Shown: positions 6,439-19,971 of the stretch, one piece after another
How the letters are laid out: each line of letters starts with the position of its first letter
Position numbering within the stretch: position 1 is the first letter of the stretch
Origin: a virus
Length of the DNA: 20,166 nucleotides
IMG/VR virus record: IMGVR_UViG_3300035698_002123
Coordinates: 1 to 20,166 of that record
Reading direction: 5' to 3' (one strand)
Notes under the pieces: model-generated
The model's input: only the letters and a program-made list of their open reading frames with translations
Databases searched by the model: none
What the model was told of the DNA's origin: nothing
Made by a program: the position numbers and the translations under genes

Positions 6439-8658
6439 TTATTCCGCTGTTAATTCCATCGTACATGTGCAGTTTGGATGCAACGGAGGCAGCTCATCAT
6501 AGATTATAACATCGGATTCTTTATAAACCAAAATCTGTGAATCACATATCTTACAAGGTGTCGTGTCATGTCTTACTGATTTTATCTCTGCGAAACCATT
6601 AGGACGATATCCACTAGCCTTGCCATAATTGTAAGCTCTCATTATTTCGCTATTGTCAATCATAACCGTTCTATGTCTTAAAGCATCGAAGACAAGACCT
6701 GTAACAACTGCATCTTCTGCACGTAAGTTATTAGTTTTGATAGTGTTTTTGTCGATTCTGTTCAAGAGTTGACCCATTAGTTTGCTAATGTATTTATCAA
6801 TATGATCATGCACTTTACCGTCTGCTTTGTCAATTCTGACATCCCAGATTTGTGCATTGGCATCAGCAACTCCAATACGATACGCTTTTTGTGCCAAAGA
6901 AACAAGTTTGTCCTTAGCTCGGGCAAAACTCAGCTGTGCTAGAAGCTTCATCTCTCCCTTCCTGTAACCTTTAATTCTGACCTTTATCATCATATCTGTA
7001 CGCAACTCATCATAGATACTCTGTAATGGAGGGCTCTGCCTGAACAATACATCAAGATTCTGGACTTTGTTACGGTCGCCGAAGGAATCCTTACTAAGCT
7101 TTGCAGACGCTCTAGTGCCATATTGATTCTGTGGCTGGTTCCTATTTTGAGTAGTCTTATTCTTAGAAGTACTAGATGCAACAGCATTGTTCTTCTTTGC
7201 TGTAGACTTGGCTACTGTCTGAGCAACATCAGTTCTAGGCTCATCAATAGCCTGGATAATCACTTTATCTCTATCAATAAGACCATAATACGAAGCAGCC
7301 CAGTCTCCATCACCTTTAGTAAACATTTTAGCCTTGCTATTAGCTGTAGGCCAACCTGAACCAATGAAAGGCTCTCTGCCCATACCTTGACGCATCTCTG
7401 AGTGTGTAAGGGCGTTCTGTAAGAACAACTGATTATAATGATTCTCTTTAGCCATACGAGATTCAAAGTCGATCTCTTTAAACTTAAGCTCAACCATGTT
7501 TTGTTCATCTAGCATTGTAGCATCAGAAAAGGTGCTCTCAAGAAGAAGCTCATAGATTACATAGGCTTGTATCTGAGAACCGAATTCTTTTTGGTCAGCT
7601 TTAGTGTCATCAATAAGGTTCCTAGACATTGTGTCAGCAGTGCTTCTGTTAGCAGTTCCGCCTTCACCCATATCTACTGAGCTGTTACCCAGACCAGTAA
7701 AGATACGTTGTTTGAAAAGCTCGATAACTCTATCTACTGCAATTGGGGAGCCAGCAGCTTGTAATGCTTTTACATTATGACGTTCCGGAGTAACCCAACA
7801 ACCATCAGAAGGCATCATAGATACCTTCATCTGAATCTCGTCAACTTCAGTACTGCCATCTGCATATACAGCAGCAGGGCTTTGTTCTGTACCTACTTTA
7901 TAATGAAAGAGAGGGAAAAGGTGTTGATATACAAGCAGTTCTACGTTCTCTTCAATACGACGAAGAGCACGAATGTCATCTTTAACTGACACTAGAGCTG
8001 GAGTACCGACAGCATATCCCTCACGCTTATCGAAATAGAAATGGATAACATCCTCTGGAGCGAACTCCTTGGCTGTCTTCCCATACACTTCTTGTTGATA
8101 TTTCTTTACCTTGCCATACTCGTCACGTTTGAAACGGACTGTTTCCGCTGGCAGGAGGAAATACCCCGCAACTGGATTAAGAGATTTACCATTGGCATCA
8201 AGTCTCTTCTTACCACCAGAAGCTTCAGTTTTACGAACCTTTACCCAGAAGGCATTACTTGTCCTCACTAGAGAGGAGATAGTTTGGCTCATTAGGATCT
8301 TAAACGGCATGTTTGTCGCAAGTTCCATCTGCTTCATACGTCTTTTGATGTATTGAACTCTTTCAGGTTTAGGACCAACGAACTCATAGCCTTCTTTAAT
8401 GAAGAGGTTCTTTTTGTTCCTAAATGCTCTACGAACATATGACTCTGTGTCTAAAATCCTACCACATTCAGCAAGATCCCATTCAGGTTGTTCCCATCTC
8501 AATTGAGGTACACGAGAACGCCCGAGGTTACTAGTATATGCTTTTGTAGGAGCTGGGATATGTCTAGGGACCATACCCTTCTTGTCCTTAGGAAATCCAT
8601 CATTCTTTGGCATTTGCTTAAGCTCTAGATTGGCGCTTCTCTTAGTAATAGTAGCCAT
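6439..8658 (-). CDS. Portal protein with C-terminal MuF-like domain
   Basis: This 739-aa protein would form the dodecameric DNA entry vertex. Residues about 50-470 have the portal pattern: an AFRNKKNLFIKEGYEF helix, VAGYFLLPAETVRFKRDEYG, EDVIHFYFDKREGYAVGTPAL (the wing/stem entry common to portals), then a long helical region with LFKQRIFTGLGNSS. Residues about 490-540 are a low-complexity Ser/Thr/Asn/Gln linker. The C-terminus carries a MuF-type minor head domain ending in C702-x2-C705, then H727-P-N-C730-T-C732, the classical putative zinc site. Ordinary portals are about 450-550 aa, so this is a natural fusion of two genes usually separate. It overlaps the preceding gene by TAATG and has GAGGGG 9 bases upstream. 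Confidence 0.88.
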   Translation of the reverse strand: MATITKRSANLELKQMPKNDGFPKDKKGMVPRHIPAPTKAYTSNLGRSRVPQLRWEQPEWDLAECGRILDTESYVRRAFRNKKNLFIKEGYEFVGPKPERVQYIKRRMKQMELATNMPFKILMSQTISSLVRTSNAFWVKVRKTEASGGKKRLDANGKSLNPVAGYFLLPAETVRFKRDEYGKVKKYQQEVYGKTAKEFAPEDVIHFYFDKREGYAVGTPALVSVKDDIRALRRIEENVELLVYQHLFPLFHYKVGTEQSPAAVYADGSTEVDEIQMKVSMMPSDGCWVTPERHNVKALQAAGSPIAVDRVIELFKQRIFTGLGNSSVDMGEGGTANRSTADTMSRNLIDDTKADQKEFGSQIQAYVIYELLLESTFSDATMLDEQNMVELKFKEIDFESRMAKENHYNQLFLQNALTHSEMRQGMGREPFIGSGWPTANSKAKMFTKGDGDWAASYYGLIDRDKVIIQAIDEPRTDVAQTVAKSTAKKNNAVASSTSKNKTTQNRNQPQNQYGTRASAKLSKDSFGDRNKVQNLDVLFRQSPPLQSIYDELRTDMMIKVRIKGYRKGEMKLLAQLSFARAKDKLVSLAQKAYRIGVADANAQIWDVRIDKADGKVHDHIDKYISKLMGQLLNRIDKNTIKTNNLRAEDAVVTGLVFDALRHRTVMIDNSEIMRAYNYGKASGYRPNGFAEIKSVRHDTTPCKICDSQILVYKESDVIIYDELPPLHPNCTCTMELTAE

Positions 8659-11928: not shown

Positions 11929-13872
11929 CTAGAATGTAGACCTGCTAGGTCTGTTCCTCTGTACTGTACCTCTAGATCGTTTTCTTTGCAACCATCCAGC
12001 TTTCTCAATAGGCTCTCTGTCTTCATCCCAACCTCTTCTATTTGTTTTCATTGTATGAATTCCAGAATCTACCTTACCTGGCATTACACCAAAAATAGAG
12101 CTATTAGTCAACCCTGCATCCATTCTTCTATCTTCTGGACGATTAGACTTGTTCTCAAGCTGAGAATCGGCTCGTGGTGTCTGTTGCTTTACATTTCTAG
12201 GATCTGGCGCCACACCTACAGATGTTACCACACGTATAGTATGTAAGTCATCAAACTCAAGGTGGAAGGCAACGATTGCCAAGTTAAGAGCATCTAGCCT
12301 GTGATCACCAATCTTAGCATCTTCCATACCATATACAGGTGACTTTGTAGGAGTATATCTCTCAATGATATAGTTTCTTAGCTGTTTCTCTAATATACTA
12401 TCAGAAGAAGAGATATGAATCCTTCCTTGTTCAAACATACGAATAGAAGCATTAATCATGAAGGCCTTAGCTGGAGACTTGATGTCTTGAGCAGTGACAG
12501 GGTCTTTCGTCGGAATAGAAGAACCAGAGTCATATTTCTTCATCATATCTAATAACCTAGCTGTATCCCTATCTCCACCTGGACGTCTCTCCTCATAAGC
12601 TGTCTTCCGAAGAACTTCATAGTTCGTAGAACCATTACCAGCATCAATGTAGATATAGGCAGGTTTCCATTTCTTGTTTAATTCTATAACCTTAGCGATA
12701 CCAGACAGCTGAGTAAACTCTACACCAGTAACCAGCACAGTCTCTACTACCTTATATGCCCCAGTTGCCATGTTATATCCAAGAACAGCTAACTCAGTAC
12801 CGTGTTTCTCATTCCAGTCAATACCAATACAATACTTCCAAGTTGGATGCTGATGCATGTCTGAGTAGTCATATACCTGTAAAGCCTTGTCAATATAGTG
12901 TGGTTTATACACACCAGACTCTGATGAACCCCATTCAGCTAAGAACTCGTGAATCCAATCCTCTTCTGTATACTGTGGCTTATCATTCTCTACTGCTCTC
13001 CAGTGAGGCAGAACTTTATAGGAATAGTGGAATTGGACGAAGGCAGGATCTTCTTCACAGGCTTTATAGAACGGTGTCCTGAATCCTGAGGGAGTAGAGA
13101 ATCCAACTAGAGCGGTATTTGGTGTTGTCTGTAGAATTGGAAGCACAGCACCTGTGATTGCCTTCTCATCAACATAGTCCATCTCTTCAAGGTACAATCT
13201 GTCAGCATCCTGCCCACGAATACCAACTGAAGAACCTTTACCTTTGGCGCCAGCCGCAAATCCTCTGAGACGAGAACCATTAGAGAGTTCAATCTCATAC
13301 CAAGGAGCACTAACATCTCTGGTTACCATATTACCCAAAGCAGGATTAGAACGTATAAATTCTCTAACTCTGTTAAAGATTTCCTCTGCATGTGTCTTCT
13401 GAGGGCCGGCAACTACAACTTTAATATTATTTGTCGTAAATAAGTAATAACAGATCTCTACACAAACAGCATCTGTCTTACCAGCACGACGAGAGATCCT
13501 TAGCACCTTACGTCTTGATGTGCATCGAAGAACGTCACTCTGATACCATCTAGCAACCCATGGCTCACCATTAGGGAGTAAAAGGTTAGCAGCTGCCCAG
13601 GTTACAATATCCATAGCCTCTAAAGCAGCATTACGAGATTCTTCTGTAGGGAACTGTGACAATGCAGACTCATCAATGAAATCCTTAGGAATACCAGTAC
13701 AAGGAACCATAAATTTGCTCCCTATGTTCTTCCCACTCTCATCAACATGTTTACCGTATCTCTTTAACTGTTTACGTACACACTTATGACATTGTTCACG
13801 AACATCATCCAAATCAAATGGAAGTTGAAGTTCACGTAGGTCTGCAAGAGTGTCTACAGCGATATCATTCAT
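11929..13872 (-). CDS. terL: Terminase large subunit
   Basis: This 647-aa packaging motor pumps DNA through the portal using ATP and cuts concatemers. The N-terminal ATPase domain has a Walker A-type RISRRAGKT (R125-T133), a Walker B-like LYLEE (226-230), where Glu229 replaces the usual Asp, and a coupling GFST motif (257-260). The C-terminal RNase H-like nuclease shows the expected acidic triad: Asp352 in CIGIDWNEKHG, Asp410 in IYIDAGNGS, and Asp527 in IGDHRLDALN. Residues 541-647 are a polar, basic tail rich in Arg and Lys. The N-terminal 110 residues include C28-x2-C31. It starts at ATG 8 bases after the preceding gene, with AAGGA about 6 bases upstream. The sequence is complete, with every motif present. 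Confidence 0.95.
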   Translation of the reverse strand: MNDIAVDTLADLRELQLPFDLDDVREQCHKCVRKQLKRYGKHVDESGKNIGSKFMVPCTGIPKDFIDESALSQFPTEESRNAALEAMDIVTWAAANLLLPNGEPWVARWYQSDVLRCTSRRKVLRISRRAGKTDAVCVEICYYLFTTNNIKVVVAGPQKTHAEEIFNRVREFIRSNPALGNMVTRDVSAPWYEIELSNGSRLRGFAAGAKGKGSSVGIRGQDADRLYLEEMDYVDEKAITGAVLPILQTTPNTALVGFSTPSGFRTPFYKACEEDPAFVQFHYSYKVLPHWRAVENDKPQYTEEDWIHEFLAEWGSSESGVYKPHYIDKALQVYDYSDMHQHPTWKYCIGIDWNEKHGTELAVLGYNMATGAYKVVETVLVTGVEFTQLSGIAKVIELNKKWKPAYIYIDAGNGSTNYEVLRKTAYEERRPGGDRDTARLLDMMKKYDSGSSIPTKDPVTAQDIKSPAKAFMINASIRMFEQGRIHISSSDSILEKQLRNYIIERYTPTKSPVYGMEDAKIGDHRLDALNLAIVAFHLEFDDLHTIRVVTSVGVAPDPRNVKQQTPRADSQLENKSNRPEDRRMDAGLTNSSIFGVMPGKVDSGIHTMKTNRRGWDEDREPIEKAGWLQRKRSRGTVQRNRPSRSTF

Positions 13873-15247: not shown

Positions 15248-15276
15248 AGTATAGTACTTTATGCAAGCCTTGTCGA
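15248..15276 (-). promoter_or_regulatory. Candidate sigma70-type promoter
   Basis: On the minus strand, TCGACA (15276-15271) and TATACT (15253-15248) match the -35 and -10 consensus at 5 of 6 bases each, with an ideal 17-base spacer. It overlaps the end of the kinase-like gene and sits in the 46-base gap before the 188-aa gene, where a start would give a short leader to its SD. It could start a separate transcript for the glycine-rich genes, the terminase and the genes below. Chance matches are possible in AT-rich DNA. Confidence 0.5.
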
Positions 15277-16701
15277 GCCAAAACTAGTATGGCCTCTGCC
15301 AGCACCATTAGCTGACCTCAAACCAACACCAACTGAAGCTTTAGACCTTTCCTTAAATTTCTTGTTTCTTCTAACGGTCTGTTCTAATGCTTTTGCCTTG
15401 GGCTTATTGGGAGCTGTTTTCGGAAGCATAGAGTTCATGTCTCCCCAATCATCAAAAGATTTGTAAGTAGGTATATCAACTTTCTTACCTCCTGCATGCT
15501 TAAAAACTTCACCTACCGATGCTCTTAGTGTGTTCTCGTCTAAGCCCATTAATGCATTTATTCCTAAGTGATCTGATTTCTCTTTCGATCTTTTATAGAA
15601 AGCATGTATCCTTTTCTTATCTGCCATCTTTGCATATTCTTTTAATGGAACAGAACGACCAAGAGATTTCATTCCTATTTCTTCTATAATAGCTCTGTTC
15701 GATCCTAAAAGAGGAGTATCATCCTGAAGTCTATTTGCAAGACCCCAGTCAATGATTGCTGGCTCAAATTCTCCAGTGCTAGTCTTTACTCTAACTAAGT
15801 TATCTCCATGTAAATCTGTATGAGTTATGTCTCTTGTGTGTGTCTTCTCTAAGAAAGAAGATAGTTTCCCATATTCTTCATCTGACATTGCTTTCTTTTG
15901 GAAATCTTCAACGATATTAAATTTTTCCATGAATACAGCATTGTCAGATGATCCATACAAACTTGGAGAGATGTTCTCTTCTATATTCCCTAACCTTCCA
16001 AGAATCTCTTTTTCTTTAGGCATAAACTCTTTCAAGGTCATTTCTCTAAGATTACCTGCATCTTCCTTCGACATAGCCCCTCCACCTTCTAAAAAGATAT
16101 CCTCTGTAGACCTAGCTTGCTTAGAGACAAATTCAAACTTATGAGTTTTACCAGCATATTTAAATTCACTTTTATATAAGAAAGAATTTGCTGTAACTCC
16201 AAACCCTAAAAGTTTTCCTTCTCCTTGTGCTCCTTTAGTAAGAGCTTGTCTGAATTCAGGTAAATTTCTTAATTTTGAGAAAGATTCACTACCTTCTCCA
16301 AATATCTCTGTGGCAATCTTTCTCATAGGATCCCAACGAGAAGCAAAGTCTTTCTTAAATTCTGAGTGTTGTTCACGACTACTAGCAGCCATACCGTTGT
16401 TAGGCATGCCTGAGAACTTCCCTCTGCCCTGTATACCGCCACCATACATGTTGGTAGCCTTACGTTGCATAAGGCCAGAAATGTTCTTCCTGGCGCCAGC
16501 ACGCTGGCCATGGTGATATTCTTTTAATTCATCGTAAGCTATTTCAGTAGCATTAGAACTGGCTACCTTCTCTAACAGGGCACCTTGCCAGCCAGAACCG
16601 AACTCTGAGAACTCACGAATAGCCTGAGTTCCTAGTCCTTCAGAACCAGGATGGATACCATCAAGGAATGCAGGAGTCATAAATTTACGTGGATTGGCCA
16701 C
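15259..16701 (-). CDS. Protein-kinase-like domain protein
   Basis: This 480-aa protein has a GTG start at 16701, with AGGTGA 6 bases upstream. The next Met at residue 8 lacks an SD. Residues about 160-330 show kinase or phosphotransferase landmarks: a Gly-rich loop LGFGVTANSFLYK (165-177), a candidate ATP lysine at K194, catalytic loop HTDLHGDN (294-301) with Asp296 and Asn301, and IIDWGLA (316-322) with metal-binding Asp318 replacing DFG by DWG. The N-terminal 155 residues are polar, Gly/Asn-rich and unrecognised, and the C-terminal 60 are basic and Gly-rich. All key residues are present, so it may be active. It lies next to the terminase genes, an unusual place. An aminoglycoside-phosphotransferase-like or choline-kinase-like protein is an alternative. 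The target is unknown. Confidence 0.7.
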   Translation of the reverse strand: MANPRKFMTPAFLDGIHPGSEGLGTQAIREFSEFGSGWQGALLEKVASSNATEIAYDELKEYHHGQRAGARKNISGLMQRKATNMYGGGIQGRGKFSGMPNNGMAASSREQHSEFKKDFASRWDPMRKIATEIFGEGSESFSKLRNLPEFRQALTKGAQGEGKLLGFGVTANSFLYKSEFKYAGKTHKFEFVSKQARSTEDIFLEGGGAMSKEDAGNLREMTLKEFMPKEKEILGRLGNIEENISPSLYGSSDNAVFMEKFNIVEDFQKKAMSDEEYGKLSSFLEKTHTRDITHTDLHGDNLVRVKTSTGEFEPAIIDWGLANRLQDDTPLLGSNRAIIEEIGMKSLGRSVPLKEYAKMADKKRIHAFYKRSKEKSDHLGINALMGLDENTLRASVGEVFKHAGGKKVDIPTYKSFDDWGDMNSMLPKTAPNKPKAKALEQTVRRNKKFKERSKASVGVGLRSANGAGRGHTSFGSTRLA

Positions 16702-16707
16702 ACTGAA

Positions 16708-16713
16708 TCACCT
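16708..16713 (-). promoter_or_regulatory. Ribosome binding site supporting a GTG start
   Basis: AGGTGA on the minus strand lies 6 bases before the GTG at 16701 and overlaps the TAG of the preceding gene. It favours the GTG over the ATG at residue 8, which lacks an SD. Confidence 0.55.
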
Positions 16714-18418
16714 AATCTTGGATTTCCCAGTCAGCTTGTACGAAATCACTTGAGGCAACATCTTTAGCGTCTTCCTTGATTTCCTCAAGAGAGCCTCCAT
16801 GTTGTATCTTCTTGGCAGTAGTAAGAGCAGTCTTAATGTCAGCCCAGTGCTGTCCAATATCTCCTTCTTCTCTCTGCTTAAGCATTGCAGCCTTCTTTGC
16901 TTTTTCTTTTCTTGTTGCGGAGAAAGATTCGAGCACACGCATACGTTCTGCATGAGCTTTGCTCTTAGCCTCTAGAAGAGGATGAAGTGATGATACTTCT
17001 TGCTGACTCTCACCGTTGTCAATAATATCAACCTTAATGAGATTCCAGCCATCTTCGTCCTTGCTCAGGCCGATATTAGCTCTATAATCTATCATATCAC
17101 ATTCAACCAGCTTATTGATGAGGATCATCTCTGTTCTCTCATCTGGCTGTACTCCAATATCCTCAATGTAACTTTGAGTCCATGCAGCTATTAATGTAGC
17201 CTCTATTGGACAATTATGAGTAGCTATGTTGTTAGCAAAATATGTCTTATGTTCATTCTTTACATCTAGAGCATAAACCAAACCACTATACTTCTGTCTA
17301 GTTACTTTTATTGAATTCCATATTACTTTTGAGGTATCTGAAGTATCTTTTATATAAAGAGGAACCTCCATGATCCCTGAAATCAGATTACATGCTCTAA
17401 TGAACATAGTATTCCTAGCATAAAGTTTCACTTGTCCAATTCTCTTATCAGAATTATCTTTTTCCCAAATAGGATACTCTAAACGGAGGCCAATACTTCC
17501 GAGCTTCTCTTTATAAAAATCTTCTGAATTAGATAAAGAATCATGATATGCATTTATCTGTTCCTTAGTCGCCCATTTATACAAACCATCACATTTAGAT
17601 TTAATACGATCTAGGGAATCTGCAAATGATACTTTGCTCGTTTGCCATTTTATAGAAAAAGATTCTTCGGCAAGAAGAGCATCTGTATTAAGATCGTAGA
17701 TTCCTAATACCCACATTGCATCAGCTTCTTCTTTTACTCCTCTATAGGTGAATGGCAACCTGTATTTGTCCCCCTCTGGACTGGTAGTAATTGCACTGAT
17801 CCTAGATTTACCAATCCTCCAATGAGAACCTTTCTTCATAAGATAGACACAGAATTTATTAATCGCTTTCTCATTAAATCTGGCAACGCAGATATGACCT
17901 AGAGTTGCTTGGTAATAATTAAATCCAGCATTAATATCCACAAGTTCACCAACTACTGCTTTAGAAGATACTGTAAAGTCATATCCATTTCTCCAGTTAG
18001 ACATAATACGATGTTTCTTCCTATGAAAAGAGACTACCTTATGTTCTTCTGGATCGAGATCTTCTATCTTTATGTCTCTATCTCCGGCTACTTTGATATA
18101 TGTACCAGGAGGATGACATTGTTCTGCAATAGGCCAGTTCTTCTTGTCATGAAATGGGCATTGCTTAACTGGACATCTATCACCGCCGCAAAGCATTGGA
18201 ATCATTGCTGATGTACCAACTTTCATGCGAACGATGTGATTCCTAAACTTCAATGCTTGTTCAGGTGTCATGACCTTCTCAAGGTTAGCATTATGTTCTG
18301 CTGGCAACGCCAAGAACTTAAAGAAGTCCGTAGGGGTTACCTTTCCAATATGATCCAATTGTGTACCATTCAGCTTCAGTAATTCAGCCTTTGGCTTTCC
18401 AGAGCCTTCTCCACCCAT
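16712..18418 (-). CDS. Intein-containing protein, possible small terminase subunit
   Basis: This 568-residue precursor would splice to a 266-residue product. The ATG at 18418 is preferred (AAGGA 11 bases upstream) because the GTG at 18427 is only 2 bases after it. Residues 1-100 precede the intein and include C77, C82 and C87 in a CGGDRCPVKQCPFH cluster. Residues 403-568 follow it and begin with Cys403 in CPIEATLIAAW. The extein C-terminus has a helical, basic segment with LHPLLEAKSKAHAERM and SATRKEKAKK, reminiscent of P27-type small terminases, and a polar tail. Gene order upstream of the large terminase is compatible, but three genes intervene. The splicing elements are strong; the extein function is a weak inference. 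Small terminase or another DNA-binding or metal-binding phage protein are both possible. Confidence 0.8.
   Translation of the reverse strand: MGGEGSGKPKAELLKLNGTQLDHIGKVTPTDFFKFLALPAEHNANLEKVMTPEQALKFRNHIVRMKVGTSAMIPMLCGGDRCPVKQCPFHDKKNWPIAEQCHPPGTYIKVAGDRDIKIEDLDPEEHKVVSFHRKKHRIMSNWRNGYDFTVSSKAVVGELVDINAGFNYYQATLGHICVARFNEKAINKFCVYLMKKGSHWRIGKSRISAITTSPEGDKYRLPFTYRGVKEEADAMWVLGIYDLNTDALLAEESFSIKWQTSKVSFADSLDRIKSKCDGLYKWATKEQINAYHDSLSNSEDFYKEKLGSIGLRLEYPIWEKDNSDKRIGQVKLYARNTMFIRACNLISGIMEVPLYIKDTSDTSKVIWNSIKVTRQKYSGLVYALDVKNEHKTYFANNIATHNCPIEATLIAAWTQSYIEDIGVQPDERTEMILINKLVECDMIDYRANIGLSKDEDGWNLIKVDIIDNGESQQEVSSLHPLLEAKSKAHAERMRVLESFSATRKEKAKKAAMLKQREEGDIGQHWADIKTALTTAKKIQHGGSLEEIKEDAKDVASSDFVQADWEIQD
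17213..18118 (-). mobile_element. Intein with GIY-YIG-like endonuclease region
   Basis: This is a 302-residue in-frame protein intron from Cys101 to Asn402. Block A starts CHPPGTYIKV. Block B has T172-x2-H175 in ATLGHICVARF. Block F is VYALDVKNEHKTYFANNI, and block G ends with ATHN before Cys403, so the full set for protein splicing is present. Between blocks B and F, residues 189-205 read FCVYLMKKGSHWRIGKS, matching the GIY-YIG pattern with Y192 and RIG (201-203). Downstream WVLGIYDLNTDALLAEE gives a candidate catalytic Glu (251/252) at the usual distance. I find no LAGLIDADG or HNH motif. The insertion is more AT-rich than the flanking gene. Confidence 0.85.
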
Positions 18419-18419
18419 G

Positions 18420-18782
18420 TTATTCACTATCCTTAAAGTTAGAATCTATCTTAACGACTTTGGTAGGTTTGGCGCCAGCCATCTCTTCCGGAGTGGCGAA
18501 ACCAATAACATAGGCTTCAGCATCAAAGCATCTAGCGAACAGATACTGAGGCAAGTCATATAAGTCTCCATTGCCTTCAACTGTGACCCAACCATTGTGG
18601 TTATCACAGGAGATAACACGATAAGCGGTGTTAGGTACAAAGCACTTGATCTCTTGCTGGCAAACGGTAATAGCACCAGCAGGAATCTTGAGTTCGCACT
18701 TTGAATTGTTAGGATGCACTACCCACCAACTCTCGCCGTTTTTAAGTGGGTGTTCCAATGGATCTATCCTATAATGTTTCAT
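18420..18782 (-). CDS. Small protein, unknown function
   Basis: This 120-aa protein starts at ATG in a TAATG overlap with the preceding stop, with AAGGAG 7 bases upstream. It ends 1 base before the intein gene. It contains SWWVVHPNNSKCELKIPAG, EIKCFVPNTAYRVIS, and GWVTVEGNGDLYDLP, which suggests a small beta-rich fold. The C-terminus (YVIGFATPEEMAGAKPTKVV) is helical to coil. There is no signal peptide or membrane segment. No family is recognised; tight spacing puts it in the same transcript as the GroES-like and intein genes. Confidence 0.7.
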   Translation of the reverse strand: MKHYRIDPLEHPLKNGESWWVVHPNNSKCELKIPAGAITVCQQEIKCFVPNTAYRVISCDNHNGWVTVEGNGDLYDLPQYLFARCFDAEAYVIGFATPEEMAGAKPTKVVKIDSNFKDSE

Positions 18783-19022: not shown

Positions 19023-19313
19023 TTACTCCACCGCCATTACTGCATCATACTTGATAAAAAACTTATTGTTATCCTTATTGTCAGGCTCTACTGGAATGCC
19101 AGTCTGGAAATGACTATAAACAATACTTCCCTCTCCATACCTCAAATCCTGCTTGTCCTCCCGACACAAATCATAGACATCAGGGCTAATATCAATAACC
19201 TTGAACTTCTTTAAAGGAGAAGTCCTCTTAATAGTGGTAAGGATTATTCCACCCTCTGTCTTCTCCTCTTCTTTAACTAACTCTACAATTACCCATTGAT
19301 TAACTGGTTTCAT
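19023..19313 (-). CDS. GroES-like co-chaperonin
   Basis: This 96-aa protein matches the GroES length of about 97 aa. It starts MKPVNQWVIVEL, followed by EEEKTEGGIIL (15-25), the mobile-loop type with GGIIL for contact with the GroEL ring. Then come FKVIDISPDV and YGEGSIVYSHFQTGIPVE in place of the GroES strands, and the C-terminus is KYDAVMAVE. I place the start at the ATG at 19313, because AAGGAG sits 7 bases upstream and the protein then aligns with GroES from residue 1. A longer reading from 19334 has no SD. In T4, gp31 replaces host GroES to help GroEL fold the capsid protein; a similar role is inferred here. There is no GroEL in the window. Confidence 0.85.
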   Translation of the reverse strand: MKPVNQWVIVELVKEEEKTEGGIILTTIKRTSPLKKFKVIDISPDVYDLCREDKQDLRYGEGSIVYSHFQTGIPVEPDNKDNNKFFIKYDAVMAVE

Positions 19314-19971
19314 TTGATTTCTCCTTGGGCTCAATAACCCCTGTAGTTTTACTAATTCTCTCTTGGTGTTGCTCTACTGTCTCTTCAGTAACACCCTCGA
19401 ATGTATACCATTCTTCTGAGACAATGTCATCTACTGCTATACCATAACTCTGACTATTAAATCTAATCTTTTCTGAGAAAAGGCAGGATAAAGCCCCATA
19501 CTCATTAGCTGCCACTGCTGTCATAGTAACAGTCTTGCCAATGAAGTCATGATGCTGATCAAACATAAGAAAGCATGCACTACCCTCAATGCATACTTTT
19601 CCCTCATTAATATGTCGATGGAAGCTAAACCCCTGGACCGTACCAATAGCCTTCTCATCAAAACAGATCTTAATGTCTATACCAGAGAAGGAGTTATATC
19701 CTCTAGTGAACTCAGAGTTTTGCATATTAGGAATCCAGCAGATATTAGGATGATTAATGTTATCTGTATTCCCTGAAACAAAACTTACTGGATCTGGAGA
19801 GCCCAGCTTATATATAGGTGCCCTGGTACGATACATCGGCTTGCCATCCTTGCCAAACCAAGCAACATGCTTAGGTTTTAGCTTCTTAAGCTTCTTACTA
19901 GCCTTATCATGCTTCTTCCCCAGCCGGCAGTCATTCAAGGCTCTTAATCTTAATTTTAATTTATCAAACAT
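19300..19971 (-). CDS. Unknown 223-aa protein related to its upstream neighbour
   Basis: This 223-aa protein starts at ATG with AGGAGA upstream and overlaps the GroES-like gene by 14 bases. The N-terminal 40 residues are strongly basic (KLKLRLRALNDCRLGKKHDK, then KKLKKLKPKH). The rest is mixed, with strands such as GIDIKICFDEKAIGTVQGFSF and VCIEGSACFLMF. Near the C-terminus it reads AVDDIVSEEWYTFEG, similar to the end of the gene just upstream (SIDDIVAEHSYTYIA), so the two look paralogous. I recognise no family. The basic N-terminus could bind nucleic acid, which is an inference only. Confidence 0.7.
   Translation of the reverse strand: MFDKLKLRLRALNDCRLGKKHDKASKKLKKLKPKHVAWFGKDGKPMYRTRAPIYKLGSPDPVSFVSGNTDNINHPNICWIPNMQNSEFTRGYNSFSGIDIKICFDEKAIGTVQGFSFHRHINEGKVCIEGSACFLMFDQHHDFIGKTVTMTAVAANEYGALSCLFSEKIRFNSQSYGIAVDDIVSEEWYTFEGVTEETVEQHQERISKTTGVIEPKEKSNETS
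19321..19326 (-). promoter_or_regulatory. Ribosome binding site deciding the GroES-like start
   Basis: AAGGAG on the minus strand lies 7 bases before the ATG at 19313 and inside the end of the 223-aa gene. It favours this start over the ATG at 19334. Confidence 0.7.

Follow-up and report, generated by a model that had tools for sequence, protein, structure and literature searches.

A predicted class 1 intein with a divergent GIY-YIG-like domain between its splicing halves in a packaging-region gene of a virus

The usual endonuclease of inteins belongs to the LAGLIDADG family, according to the accessible text of PMC5050341. In the available portion of a 2006 survey, GIY-YIG nucleases are known from group I introns and free reading frames and not from inteins (PMC1564403), and the accessible parts of open papers that appeared after 2006 describe either LAGLIDADG domains inside inteins or a GIY-YIG reading frame beside a split intein (PMC7891396, PMC5050341, PMC7765530, PMC3943268, PMC8772380, PMC10448857, PMC12363816, PMC3868849, PMC9957025, PMC7824862). 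In the AceL NrdHF system the GIY-YIG reading frame lies between the split-intein genes of a phage-like contig, as far as the available text of PMC7891396 describes it; that system pairs a nuclease gene of its own with a class 3 intein, whereas the element analysed here holds the nuclease in cis within an intein that starts with Cys1 and is of class 1. No description of a GIY-YIG domain inside an intein was found in the accessible portions of the open-access literature, and an earlier notice elsewhere, for example in subscription journals, is possible.

Several other known systems share part of this arrangement. The intein in the UvrD-type helicase gp34.33 of phage SPO1 (FJ230960), with kin in CampHawk and other phages, has the same domain order and signature but occupies a different host gene and site. 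It is annotated as an intein only, and neither its annotation note nor the accessible CampHawk literature gives an endonuclease type. The GIY-YIG homing endonucleases I-TevI and the Seg proteins of phage T4 have the fold and three of four signature residues in common with our domain, and a homing role is suggested by analogy with them; they are, however, free-standing or located in group I introns, while our domain lies inside an intein, has Arg in place of the YIG tyrosine and escapes Pfam. T5orf172 proteins and R.Hpy188I resemble our domain in having a basic residue at the YIG tyrosine, but this residue is Lys and not Arg, they are not in inteins, and the profile similarity, compared for T5orf172 only, is weak. 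The LAGLIDADG inteins of phage terminases are also packaging-gene inteins, with another nuclease family and in another gene.

The element lies in the window, that is, the whole 20,166-nucleotide stretch of viral DNA that was analysed. The relevant features, in window coordinates, are as follows.

11929..13872, minus strand: terminase large subunit (TerL) gene (phrog_2, E 7.3e-35), downstream of the host gene on the same strand.
16712..18427, minus strand: precursor reading frame of 571 aa (N-extein, intein and C-extein); GTG start in the ORF listing, with an ATG 3 codons in.
18119..18427, minus strand: N-extein of 103 residues with the C-terminal end Ala-Glu-Gln, from a junction-spanning alignment of relatives.
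18158..18190, minus strand: the three cysteines that open the host protein's conserved four-Cys motif, from relatives; Cys+1, beyond the intein, supplies the fourth.
17213..18118, minus strand: intein of 302 residues (precursor residues 104-405), from exact borders, homology and model.
18116..18118, minus strand: Cys1, predicted first nucleophile, block A (64/64 relatives covering the column).
17894..17905, minus strand: block B, Thr72-x-x-His75 (Thr72 68/68, His75 68/68).
17624..17854, minus strand: GIY-YIG-like nuclease domain, intein residues 89-165 (precursor about 192-268), from a model of residues 84-214.
17843..17845, minus strand: Tyr92, the GIY tyrosine (69/69).
17816..17818, minus strand: Arg101, at the place of the YIG tyrosine, in R-[IV]-G (69/69).
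17741..17743, minus strand: Arg126, at the catalytic-arginine position of GIY-YIG nucleases (69/69).
17666..17668, minus strand: Glu151, at the metal-ligand glutamate position of GIY-YIG nucleases (69/69).
17402..17623, minus strand: intein residues 166-239, variable, with two helices (185-195 and 199-208) in the models and the highest dN/dS of four segments; a candidate target-DNA-binding part.
17213..17401, minus strand: C-terminal splicing (Hint) part with blocks F and G, ending Thr-His-Asn302, from Pfam, alignment and model.
17210..17212, minus strand: Cys+1, predicted second nucleophile, which is also the last of the four conserved host-protein cysteines, from sequence and relatives.
16712..17212, minus strand: C-extein including the stop codon, starting Cys-Pro-Ile-Glu, from the reading frame and relatives.

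The preliminary description had placed an intein at 17213-18118 with the signatures of blocks A, B, F and G, and the borders proved exact and all four blocks present. Cys1 and the block B motif TxxH are those of a class 1 intein, as is the C-terminal end, where His301-Asn302 is followed by Cys+1. Alignment of 69 distinct inteins revealed that Asn302 is present in 69/69 and His301 in 58/69, Gly standing there in 10 relatives. The Pfam profile Intein_splicing matched the window below its cut-off (E 0.0026, 18.0 versus 35.8 bits) and was matched by 16/17 aligned members (best E 9.6e-10), while a search of solved structures with a profile of 17 intein sequences retrieved inteins and other Hint domains (best E 3.4e-6). 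In an AlphaFold model built from the 17-row alignment (mean pLDDT 86.4, pTM 0.85), the two ends aligned with the Hint fold of hedgehog, NpuDnaB, Mtu RecA and other inteins, with Z values of 14.5-19.6 among the 50 matches listed. Full-length homology to the SPO1 intein, matches in 29 phage records, an orthologue at the same site (L040, below) and the Hint-fold Z values together argue that the match is not due to chance. The assignment of 17213-18118 to a class 1 intein with complete splicing signatures is thus confirmed at the level of sequence and model, and splicing activity is predicted. A class 3 intein was rejected because Cys1 is present, and a group I intron because the frame is open throughout and the insert encodes Hint; a free-standing nuclease was also considered and rejected.

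Searches with the intein (tblastn) against 50,697 phage records yielded 29 matching records, 28 of which cover at least 80% of it, all below 60% identity (about 24-31%). The annotated SPO1 intein matched across all 302 aa (E 1e-27, about 29% identical), and the other matches were in Bacillus phage kin of SPO1, in the adenine methylase of Streptococcus suis phages, in a Vibrio phage RYC helicase and in phage phiBsKO1-1. When viral contigs were scanned with the window intein alone, 1 stretch matched and was not confirmed, and a four-sequence alignment was used instead; it retrieved 32 loci, a further scan gave 108 confirmed loci, the best 80 of which were used, and a scan of genome contigs added 13 loci. 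At least five insertion sites could be read from the flanks: a DNA adenine methylase (HE[WP]|C), UvrD-like helicases (GDxxQ|[CS], GDx|CQ and once, in L026, before SAKGLEW) and the window's four-Cys protein, before its fourth Cys. This last site, down to the cysteine, is also occupied by a full-length orthologous intein, 41% identical, in the corresponding gene of L040, a 128-kb contig in which TerL follows after about 4 kb.

A phylogenetic tree of 72 inteins (64 of the 69 aligned plus 8 from genome contigs, 5 partial inteins that do not start with Cys being left out) showed that the insertion-site labels need 5 changes, the minimum possible, whereas shuffled labels need 35.8 on average and none of 200 shuffles was as low as 5. 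The window intein and L040 formed a branch of their own (SH-aLRT 99). Sorting by insertion site is what allele-specific homing predicts, although vertical descent within sites would also produce such clusters. Some members depart from the common form: in phage phiBsKO1-1 (L004, an unannotated record) both the SPO1-type intein and its helicase are frameshifted, through sequencing errors or decay, and larger relatives of 358-371 aa occur in bacterial UvrD-like helicases (L147, L150, L151), where an added stretch of about 80 residues, which gave no Pfam match, separates the nuclease domain from the C-terminal Hint part.

The preliminary description had likened the insert between blocks B and F to a GIY-YIG domain, to be checked by Pfam profiles and structure prediction. 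The profile check failed: no GIY-YIG Pfam match was found in the window, in 17 whole inteins (E<=1) or among the 57 domain sequences searched (E<=10). A Pfam match marks the described families and does not define the superfamily; since neither PF01541 nor a sister profile was matched, the window domain falls outside the described Pfam families. A domain profile likewise retrieved nothing significant among PDB sequences, and Foldseek of the domain model against PDB gave no match at E<=0.001.

Structure, on the other hand, bore the likeness out. The model of residues 84-214 (57 rows; pLDDT 90.8, pTM 0.82) has two strands, two additional strands, a helix, a strand and a helix, in this order, and contains the beta-beta-alpha-beta-alpha core of the GIY-YIG fold. 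After realignment with VIA-align, 59/999 PDB chains reached Z>=2. The top 13 rows were all GIY-YIG nucleases (Slx1, UvrC, UPF0213; Z 4.2-4.9), and the 14th was unrelated at Z 2.9. The best of them were Slx1 6sei (Z 4.9, rmsd 3.3, 84 aligned), UvrC 1yd6 (Z 4.7, rmsd 3.8, 71 aligned) and UPF0213 1zg2 (Z 4.7, rmsd 4.3, 74 aligned). Z values below 5 are low in absolute terms, so the weight rests on the rank and on the gap. In UvrC 1yd4, residues 11-89 match model residues 1-81, which, provided that the alignment opens without a gap, would place Tyr92 at Tyr19, one of the two UvrC tyrosines (Tyr19 and Tyr29) that PDB entry titles mention. In the BFVD library of viral structures the three best matches (E 8e-8 to 3e-5) included a named helicase and an adenine methylase at ranks 1-2, presumably hosts of the same intein family. 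GIY-YIG proteins followed these kin, namely a GIY-YIG domain protein at rank 4 and a SegE-like GIY-YIG protein at rank 6 (both prob 0.97), with a homing endonuclease (prob 0.95) between them and a further GIY-YIG protein at rank 39 (rmsd 2.4 over 84 columns, prob 0.96).

Profile comparisons were less uniform. The domain scored 38.7 (prob) against four UvrC sequences, with 0/200 column shuffles as good, while the scores against 27 UPF0213-like sequences (2.1%; 6/200 shuffles reach the score) and five T5orf172 sequences (1.3%; 2/200) were near noise. Six unrelated or adjoining sets gave 0.1-1.9, one unrelated decoy reaching 1.9%; the C-terminal Hint set was left out of this range, its high score being rejected as a finding because it reflects overlap of the same sequence. 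These small comparison sets are insensitive, since the UvrC and UPF0213 sets score only 1.8-5.4% against each other. Forced alignments with these two sets placed the Tyr, the YIG position and the Glu in register. The GIY-YIG reference loci L153, L176 and L190 were dropped for their short flanks, and no T5orf172 was found in 14 related phage records.

Residue conservation was read from the alignment of 69 distinct inteins (window, viral loci, SPO1 and RYC; some partial), in which 18/302 columns are invariant. Seven of these lie in the domain (Tyr92, Met94, Arg101, Gly103, Arg126, Trp136 and Glu151), and four coincide with GIY-YIG positions, that is, the GIY Tyr, the G of YIG, the Arg and the Glu. 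The YIG tyrosine is replaced by Arg101 in 69/69. According to the accessible text of PMC2630997, R.Hpy188I has Lys (K73) at this position, its amino group being proposed as a possible stand-in for the tyrosine hydroxyl. The four T5orf172 members examined have KIG there; the YIG tyrosine was thus not counted as defining, since accepted GIY-YIG members lack it. No conserved Asn corresponding to the final Asn of GIY-YIG nucleases was found at intein positions 152-175, and Asn244 is invariant but far downstream of the domain. This Asn can be missing or Asp, as stated in the available part of PMC1564403. The window keeps all catalytic positions, but 10 of its residues differ from those shared by at least 85% of members, among them Gln159 and Ser161 at the domain end. 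By fold and invariant residues rather than by Pfam, the middle domain is supported as GIY-YIG-like.

Estimates of dN/dS were made in relatives, and not in the window, from 60 pairs at 60-97% identity, of which 29-39 per segment had dS above 0 and below 2. The nuclease domain had the lowest median of the four segments, 0.118 (36 usable pairs). The two splicing halves had 0.148 and 0.156, and residues 166-239 had 0.247. This pattern suggests that selection maintains a working nuclease in the relatives.

Intein-free relatives at the same site, for which the preliminary description had called, were readily found. The site is uninterrupted in 27/27 extein relatives from the viral contig scan (several contigs are identical), and it is also empty in Bacillus phage KLEB27-3 and Moorella phage MTATph1. 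When 18 such records (17 of the 27 and that of L040) were searched whole, only that of L040 carried an intein of the same family. Mini-inteins also occur. A planctomycete methylase (L149:962-2536) has one of 144 aa without a nuclease at the same methylase site as full inteins, which supports the separability of nuclease and splicing. Acinetobacter phage ME3 (KU935715, ME3_9; L005:3749-5044) carries a mini-intein in a protein homologous to the window's host protein and having the same four-Cys motif; it is 153 aa long, lacks a nuclease and lies before the third cysteine, while the window intein lies before the fourth. ME3_9 bears the annotation RNA methyltransferase. The full, mini and empty states of the homing cycle can thus all be seen in sequence, and a GIY-YIG-type intein is present in a classic laboratory phage, SPO1, so that splicing and cutting are directly testable. 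As the domain was missed by profile annotation in every member tested, it is undercounted.

The host protein matched no family in Pfam, NCBIfam, PHROGs or PDB, and its spectrin matches were rejected as chance. Its relatives conserve four cysteines, the last followed by Pro-[Ile/Leu]-Glu; the four Cys are invariant in 5 joined or intein-free proteins, and the motif was found in 26/27 uninterrupted loci, the remaining one having lost the third Cys. The intein lies exactly before the fourth Cys, which serves as +1. The TerL start lies 1.5-4.2 kb downstream of the host gene on the same strand in 27/27 loci, and 2.8 kb downstream in the window, which agrees with the earlier view of a packaging-region gene. 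A small-terminase profile was matched by 1/18 host protein relatives (E 3e-5), probably L123 in view of its extra N-terminal stretch. The host protein may have a packaging accessory or small-terminase role and may bind metal. The host homologue in L123 (1229-2368, 380 aa) has a longer N-terminal region with helix-turn-helix-like repeats and is probably also the member that matches transposase profiles.

We consider the locus to be most likely a homing element, namely a class 1 intein whose splicing halves enclose a homing endonuclease of GIY-YIG type and which homes into intein-free alleles (probability about 0.86). The intein would be translated in one chain with the host protein and would excise itself by means of Cys1, His75, His301/Asn302 and Cys+1. 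Joining of the exteins would rebuild the Cys-Pro-[Ile/Leu]-Glu motif of the four-cysteine protein encoded upstream of TerL. The free intein may then cut the intein-free copy of the gene from a co-infecting phage, with Tyr92, Arg101, Arg126 and Glu151 as its putative active site, and repair of the cut copy would copy the intein in. Splicing, cleavage and homing are predicted from sequence and models. A GIY-YIG nuclease of divergent type within a full-length intein would combine nuclease and splicing domain in a new and compact way.

It is unlikely, given the conservation among relatives, that the GIY-YIG fold has been kept while cutting was lost, leaving an element that only splices. The substitution of Arg for the YIG tyrosine, the loss of the last Asn and the window's deviations at the family-conserved positions 159 and 161 all fit such a loss. 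However, the Arg is a family trait that accompanies invariant Tyr92, Arg126 and Glu151, the nuclease segment is the most constrained one in relatives, and accepted nucleases have Lys at that position. That an unrelated nuclease or DNA-binding fold mimics the signature is very improbable; the lack of profile matches and the low Z values would agree with it, but all PDB matches with Z above 3 are GIY-YIG nucleases, an independent viral library puts GIY-YIG proteins next to the family, and the strand-strand-helix-strand-helix order with Tyr, R-[IV]-G, Arg and Glu fits GIY-YIG. A misread LAGLIDADG or HNH intein is barely conceivable. LAGLIDADG is the usual nuclease of inteins, as noted at the outset, but neither Pfam family was found in the 17 inteins (E<=1) or the 57 domains (E<=10), and nothing pointed to either, in agreement with the preliminary description.

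Beyond the homing intein itself, a broader reading is decidedly unlikely as a whole: these inteins could form an overlooked lineage of GIY-YIG homing endonucleases, with Arg for the YIG Tyr, that has spread among phages and prophage-like loci from several bacterial phyla. Because the insertion lies at a cysteine that may bind metal, the neighbouring one being used independently by another intein in ME3, the metal site would be completed only by splicing, and a packaging protein could in this way be gated by redox or metal state.

Other observations concern the surrounding packaging and head genes. TerL of eight related loci (L101, L103, L112, L113, L120, L124, L125 and L006) has P-loop inteins of its own (GRR[IL]GK|C ... 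HN|T), whose insert appears LAGLIDADG-like by eye, while the P-loop region of the window TerL is uninterrupted and without an intein. Between the host gene and TerL, 15259-16701 on the minus strand encodes a kinase-like protein with a weak Pkinase match (E 0.026) and what we take to be a kinase-type motif pattern. The portal protein is encoded at 6439-8658 on the minus strand; head-morphogenesis (Mu F-like) profiles gave weak matches to its C-terminal end, and a portal-MuF fusion is possible. A GroES/Cpn10-like protein (E 1.2e-8) is encoded at 19023-19334 on the minus strand, beside the head and packaging genes.
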